Below are positions 21,824 to 22,882 of a DNA stretch of 64,000 nucleotides, in pieces. The position numbers and the translations under genes are program-made. Numbering within the stretch: the first letter of the stretch is position 1; every line of letters starts with the position of its first letter. The notes below the pieces were generated by a model. It was not told the DNA's origin. It ran no database searches and saw nothing but the letters and a program-made list of their open reading frames with translations. The stretch covers positions 434,001 through 498,000 of the forward strand of contig JAJCZU010000003.1 of the NCBI GenBank assembly GCA_029262235.1, given 5' to 3'. This DNA is from Candidatus Eiseniibacteriota bacterium. Lineage in GTDB: Bacteria; Orphanbacterota; Orphanbacteria; Orphanbacterales; Orphanbacteraceae.

Positions 21824-22882
21824 GTGTTTCGCAACTTCTTCAGAAAGAAAAAGACGCTGACGGGTCTCTCGCGGACCTGCGGCTGAGCGGCGAAGCTCTC
21901 TCCGGCGGTCTTGTCGGAGGTCCTAGCAAAAATGCCGGGCTCGTCCCACGCAGAGTTGCTCGTGGGGTACGAGTCTTCCGACGATGCCGCCGTGTATCGT
22001 ATCGACGGGGAGCGGGCGATCGTGTCGACCGTCGATTTCATCACGCCTCCTGTCGATGACCCCGCGTGGTTCGGTCGGATTGCCGCGGCCAACTCGCTTT
22101 CGGATATTTATGCCATGGGGGCGAAGCCGCTTTTCGCGCTGAACCTCGTGATGTATCCCGAGAAGGTGCTCGGGAAGCGCGTCCTCGGGGAAATCCTGGC
22201 CGGCGCGGCGGAGAAAGTGAAAGAGGCGGGCGCGGTTCTGGCAGGCGGGCACTCGGTCGATGACAGGGAGCCGAAGTTCGGGCTCTGCGTGACAGGCATC
22301 GTCGACATTCCGCTTCTACTGAGAAACAGCGGCACCATTGCCGGGGACGCGATCATCCTGACGAAACCGCTCGGGACGGGCGTTCTCTTCAACGCGGTCA
22401 AGGCAGGGGCCCACTCCTTTTCCCGACTGGAAGAGATGTTGCCCCAGGTTGCCCGATTGAACGGGGACGGACTCGCCGTACTGCGAAAGCATGGAGTGAG
22501 GGCCCTTACGGACGTGTCCGGGTTCGGGCTCGCCGGCCATCTGTGCGAGATCGCGCGTTCGAGCAACGTCACGGTCAAAGTGCAGTCGGCCGCGATTCCC
22601 GTCTATGAAGATGCCGTCGCCCTGTATCGCGCAGGGCACACCACGGGGAGCAACCGGGGAAACCGGGAGAACGTGGCGGCGGAGATACGCGTGGCCGCGT
22701 CCTCTCCCTCGGAGCGCGAGGAACTGTGGTTCGATCCCCAGACATCGGGCGGCCTTCTGGCTGCGTTACCCCGTGAATCCGCCCTCCGCGCGGTCGAAGA
22801 ACTCCGCGAAGCGGGCTATTCCGGCAGCGCGATCATCGGCGAAGTGGTTTCGCCGGGGATCGAACGCCTGATCTTCGAGTAG
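21824..22882 (+). CDS. selD: Selenide, water dikinase, selenocysteine-containing
   Basis: SelD makes selenophosphate from selenide and ATP for tRNA-Sec charging. Read from GTG 21824 (GGGGAAT 6-9 bases upstream) through the in-frame TGA at 21884 as selenocysteine, the product is 352 residues: LTGLSRTCG-U-AAK places Sec21 and Lys24 exactly where SelD has its catalytic Cys/Sec and Lys. Further SelD motifs are ESSDDAAVYR, SLSDIYAMGAKPLFALNL, VLAGGHSVDD, DVSGFGLAGH and FDPQTSGGLLA. A conventional caller would start at TTG 21911 and lose the active site. A SECIS hairpin follows the TGA. No selA, selB or selC is seen nearby. Confidence 0.93.
21884..21919 (+). promoter_or_regulatory. Bacterial SECIS element with its UGA codon
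   Basis: After the UGA (21884-21886) comes a 13-base spacer, then a 7-bp stem CTCCGGC (21900-21906) pairing with GTCGGAG (21913-21919, one G-U) and a 6-base loop GGTCTT. The loop GGU begins 21 bases after the UGA. A small stem with a GGUCU apical loop at this distance is the form bound by SelB in E. coli fdhF. Confidence 0.88.

Follow-up and report, generated by a model that had tools for sequence, protein, structure and literature searches.

An in-frame UGA very probably encodes selenocysteine in the active site of SelD from a Candidatus Eiseniibacteriota bacterium

The analyzed stretch of DNA (64,000 nucleotides; referred to as the window) contains a selD gene on the forward strand, which encodes 352 residues when its single in-frame TGA, at codon 21, is read as selenocysteine (Sec). 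The most likely start is GTG 21824, since this frame has no other ATG, GTG, or TTG codon after the upstream stop and before the TGA. The SelD profile TIGR00476 matched residues 12-319 with a score of 355 bits (cut-off, 125 bits), and the alignment with selenide, water dikinase (SelD) from Escherichia coli (PDB 3u0o; E value of 5e-62) began at query residue 12; both ran across the TGA. In the surrounding sequence, LTGLSRTCGUAAKLSP, U21-A-A-K24 was aligned with C-G-C-K of E. coli SelD, and the U-x-x-K spacing was kept. The earlier note had placed the TGA at the catalytic Cys/Sec position, and this was borne out: there is one SelD frame, and only this TGA interrupts it. The longest unrecoded frame started at TTG 21911, as had also been claimed, and its 323-residue product lacked the active-site loop; the claim that the gene is missed by normal gene calling is true for plain ORF callers. 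A scan for sigma-70 promoters upstream of selD gave no match, and an Rfam search of the whole window detected tRNAs only. A codon-usage scan for further read-through TGAs in the window yielded eight weak candidates; it did not list the selD TGA itself and so is of low sensitivity where the N-terminal part is short.

Table 1. Features of the selD locus and related features of the source genome. Positions without a prefix are those of the window.
Feature	Position	Strand	Basis
selD, 352 codons and stop, Sec at codon 21	21824..22882	+	TIGR00476, PDB 3u0o
Sec UGA codon, selD codon 21	21884..21886	+	aligned with catalytic Cys17 of E. coli SelD
Putative bacterial SECIS hairpin, CUCCGGC/GGUCUU/GUCGGAG	21900..21919	+	fold, bacterial SECIS rules
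Shortened frame from plain ORF caller, 323 aa, without active-site Sec	21911..22882	+	ORF finding
Oxidoreductase-SelD fusion, 833 aa	L002:1417-3918; SelD part C3:267450-268472	-	TIGR03169, TIGR00476
tRNA-Sec (selC), anticodon TCA	C2:858038		70.7 bits; ARAGORN
selB, 641 aa	C2:513182		370 bits
selA	C2:76529		TIGR00474, 539 bits
SelW-like candidate (L150), short UGA-interrupted frame, MHITIKYCGAUNYLP (CGAU)	C4:1231473-1231682	-	PF10262
AhpD-like (peroxidase-related) candidate (L149), NECEYULVHHG (CEYU)	C6:187503-187622	-	PF02627
ResA/TlpA-like candidate (L141), WATWUPGC (UPGC)	C6:299281-299631	+	PF00578
Thioredoxin-like candidate (L152), FYTEWUGACK (UGAC)	C8:13367-13648	+	PF00085

A hairpin follows the UGA exactly where it had been described (CTCCGGC-GGTCTT-GTCGGAG in the DNA): a 7-bp stem, in which one pair is G-U, closed by a 6-nt loop starting with GG, at a UGA-to-loop distance of 20 nt. 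It agrees with the rules given for bacterial SECIS elements, namely a stem of 4-16 bp, a loop of 3-9 nt with G in its first two positions, and 16-37 nt from the UGA (PMC13188914). When the gene was recoded synonymously with the window's own codon usage, which was judged a better null than shuffling, 66 of 3000 sequences (2.2%) had an equally stable hairpin; plain minimum free energy z-scores from shuffling were weak (-1.57 and -0.51). By itself, the hairpin is only modestly unusual, and alone would not carry the selenoprotein claim. Among SelD genes, hairpins of -8 kcal/mol or below were found in 28 of 52 of the Sec type versus 1 of 58 of the Cys type, and hairpins of -4 kcal/mol or below in 45 of 52 versus 12 of 58 (p of about 1e-12; such p-values are indicative, the related sequences not being independent). 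The hairpin tracks the UGA rather than SelD as such.

SelD relatives were taken from the genome search set and from named public genomes, and 111 copies covered the catalytic position. The codon there was TGA in 52, TGT in 35, and TGC in 24, with no other codon. The six closest relatives found, to which the window SelD showed approximately 52% identity, all shared its TCGUAAK motif, with TGA as the codon for U, and grouped with it in a quick tree (support of 89); the closest relatives originated from SAR324, Lambdaproteobacteria, Gemmatimonadetes, Deltaproteobacteria, and Desulfobacterales.

The source genome (4.47 Mb in 11 contigs, 95.5% complete) contains SelA, SelB, and tRNA-Sec, a complete Sec-decoding set, as had been predicted in the earlier note; all three were found by genome profile and tRNA searches. 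Among 79 genomes from the genome search set, SelB was present in 35 of 36 with a TGA-type SelD versus 4 of 43 others (p of about 1e-16). The sole exception, G067 (99% complete), has a TGA-type SelD (L042; C17:261399-262394) and no SelB match at E ≤ 1e-60, which could reflect a divergent SelB, a gap, or a relict. A genome from the same family as the window genome (G006, 91% complete) has SelB above the cut-off, while SelD was not found there, with just a weak ThiL-like match; this is possibly a gap.

Further selenoproteins had been expected, and four additional TGA-interrupted redox protein candidates were identified in the genome: SelW-, AhpD-, ResA/TlpA-, and thioredoxin-like (Table 1). In each of them the UGA replaces one Cys of a CxxC motif, giving CxxU or UxxC. 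The ResA/TlpA-like domain ends a long lipoprotein-like frame and has a strong 8-bp hairpin after the UGA, while the thioredoxin-like protein, with a long C-terminal part, is probably secreted. That SelD might be the genome's lone, self-serving selenoprotein was rejected in view of these genes. Selenoproteins were sought family by family, and their count is a lower bound. Formate dehydrogenase α is the commonest bacterial selenoprotein; in the genome profile search no member scored above the cut-off, and no TGA was found. There was also no match to TIGR03167 (tRNA 2-selenouridine synthase, SelU/YbbB) in the 95.5% complete genome. Within these family searches, selenophosphate appears to serve Sec synthesis alone.

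The genome also encodes a second SelD, as the C-terminal part of a fusion whose N-terminal FAD/NAD domain is a pyridine nucleotide-disulfide oxidoreductase (404 bits with TIGR03169; SelD domain, 273 bits with TIGR00476). Its SelD domain carries Cys in a CAGC (CxxC) motif and is 36-38% identical to the window SelD, which is a separate gene. Fusions of an NADH-dehydrogenase-like domain to SelD (Ndh-SelD) that carry CxxC have been known since 2008 (PMC2398784). A same-genus genome (G001) has a similar fusion copy in an open frame of 881 residues with no TGA. The earlier note had regarded a second full-length selD with Cys as grounds for rejecting the Sec reading, and formally the fusion is such a gene. 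This criterion is too strict, and the Sec reading is not refuted, because Cys-SelD fusions are known in Sec-decoding genomes (PMC4561486, PMC2398784), because Sec- and Cys-type SelD also occur together in genomes G036 and G051, and because the fusion leaves the conserved TGA, the hairpin, and the four other UGA-containing redox genes unexplained.

The presence of this Cys-containing fusion would fit a different view of the locus, in which a Cys-type selD gene has acquired its TGA by nonsense mutation, or shows it through a sequencing error, and the task of SelD falls to the Ndh-SelD fusion. The TGA, however, stands at the only codon where Sec-type relatives carry TGA (52 of the 111 copies), and the six closest relatives, which span several phyla, have it in the same TCGUAAK motif, which strongly argues against a chance nonsense codon. 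The frame downstream is intact, few synonymous recodings fold into as stable a hairpin, and the same kind of UGA occurs in four other genes of the genome; a mutation or error is very improbable. A UGA inside a conserved gene might also be expected if UGA encoded one of the usual amino acids (Trp or Gly) in a variant genetic code. TGA nevertheless terminates 9 of the 22 long frames in the window, which points to context-dependent recoding, the aligned catalytic residue of SelD relatives was always Cys or Sec and never Trp or Gly, and tRNA-Sec, SelA, and SelB are present, leaving a variant code a vanishingly small chance.

Plain ORF finding delivers the 323-residue frame, and the true product might start at TTG 21911 (or ATG 21932) and so lack the active-site loop. 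The codons upstream of the TGA nevertheless align with SelD relatives (TLTGLSxTCG), and their third positions look like those of coding sequence, with a GC3 of 0.80 compared with 0.78 in the gene body. SelD lacking the catalytic Cys/Sec and Lys would be inactive, as established for E. coli SelD, and such a shortened product is exceedingly improbable. Recoding of the UGA as Sec is the preferred reading: the gene is almost certainly a functional selD with Sec as its own active-site residue, judging from homology that runs uninterrupted across the conserved TGA, selA, selB, and selC, the hairpin, and the further UGA-containing redox genes. Both Sec insertion and enzymatic activity are inferred from sequence. 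The proposal of the earlier note that this organism decodes UGA as Sec gains support from selA, selB, tRNA-Sec, and the other UGA-containing redox genes.

In the proposed pathway, the UGA would be decoded by SelB and tRNA-Sec under the direction of the downstream hairpin, and Sec21 together with the nearby Lys24 would convert selenide and ATP into selenophosphate. SelA would then use selenophosphate to charge tRNA-Sec, for SelD and for at least four other probable selenoproteins. As a counterpoint, the Cys-type second SelD could supply selenophosphate without the Sec-SelD gene, and by inference it may prime the synthesis of Sec-SelD. A more specific version, that the two form a bootstrapping pair in which the Cys fusion makes the first selenophosphate for Sec insertion into a more efficient Sec-SelD that then takes over the main flux, is conceivable but unlikely; if true, it would solve the circularity of an enzyme needing its own product. 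The coexistence of the two forms is mildly interesting and lends itself to the question of how an enzyme that depends on itself gets started; any division of labor is hypothetical.

Among prokaryotic selenoprotein families, Sec-SelD ranks second in size. In one set of reference prokaryotic genomes, 19% of the detected SelD genes encode Sec, always at the same position (PMC4561486). The window gene shares with known Sec-SelD/SPS2 the catalytic Sec, a SECIS-like hairpin directly downstream, the TIGR00476 match, and the co-occurrence with SelA, SelB, and tRNA-Sec, and there is no essential difference. The window SelD is divergent in sequence, and its catalytic residue stands in a TCGU context that is common to the SAR324, Lambdaproteobacteria, Gemmatimonadetes, and Deltaproteobacteria copies. 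SelD from E. coli, which has Cys where the window SelD has Sec, and from Aquifex (2yye) could be aligned nearly over the full length, including the catalytic position and Lys. The second SelD of the genome, with its CAGC motif, corresponds to the Ndh-SelD fusions (TIGR03169 and SelD) in PMC2398784 and PMC4561486. Sec-SelD is well-known, textbook biology, and the window gene adds an example from a bacterium of a poorly sampled lineage, in which UGA very probably specifies Sec. Annotation of this genome needs selenoprotein-aware calling: plain calling misplaces the start of selD, and it is likely that no fewer than four other genes are split or truncated.

The SelD copies of a single bacterial family (L048 in G002, L021 in G003, and the window copy) were scattered across the quick tree, with Sec forms of two clades and a Cys form near Thorarchaeota copies. 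This scatter suggests replacement by horizontal transfer.
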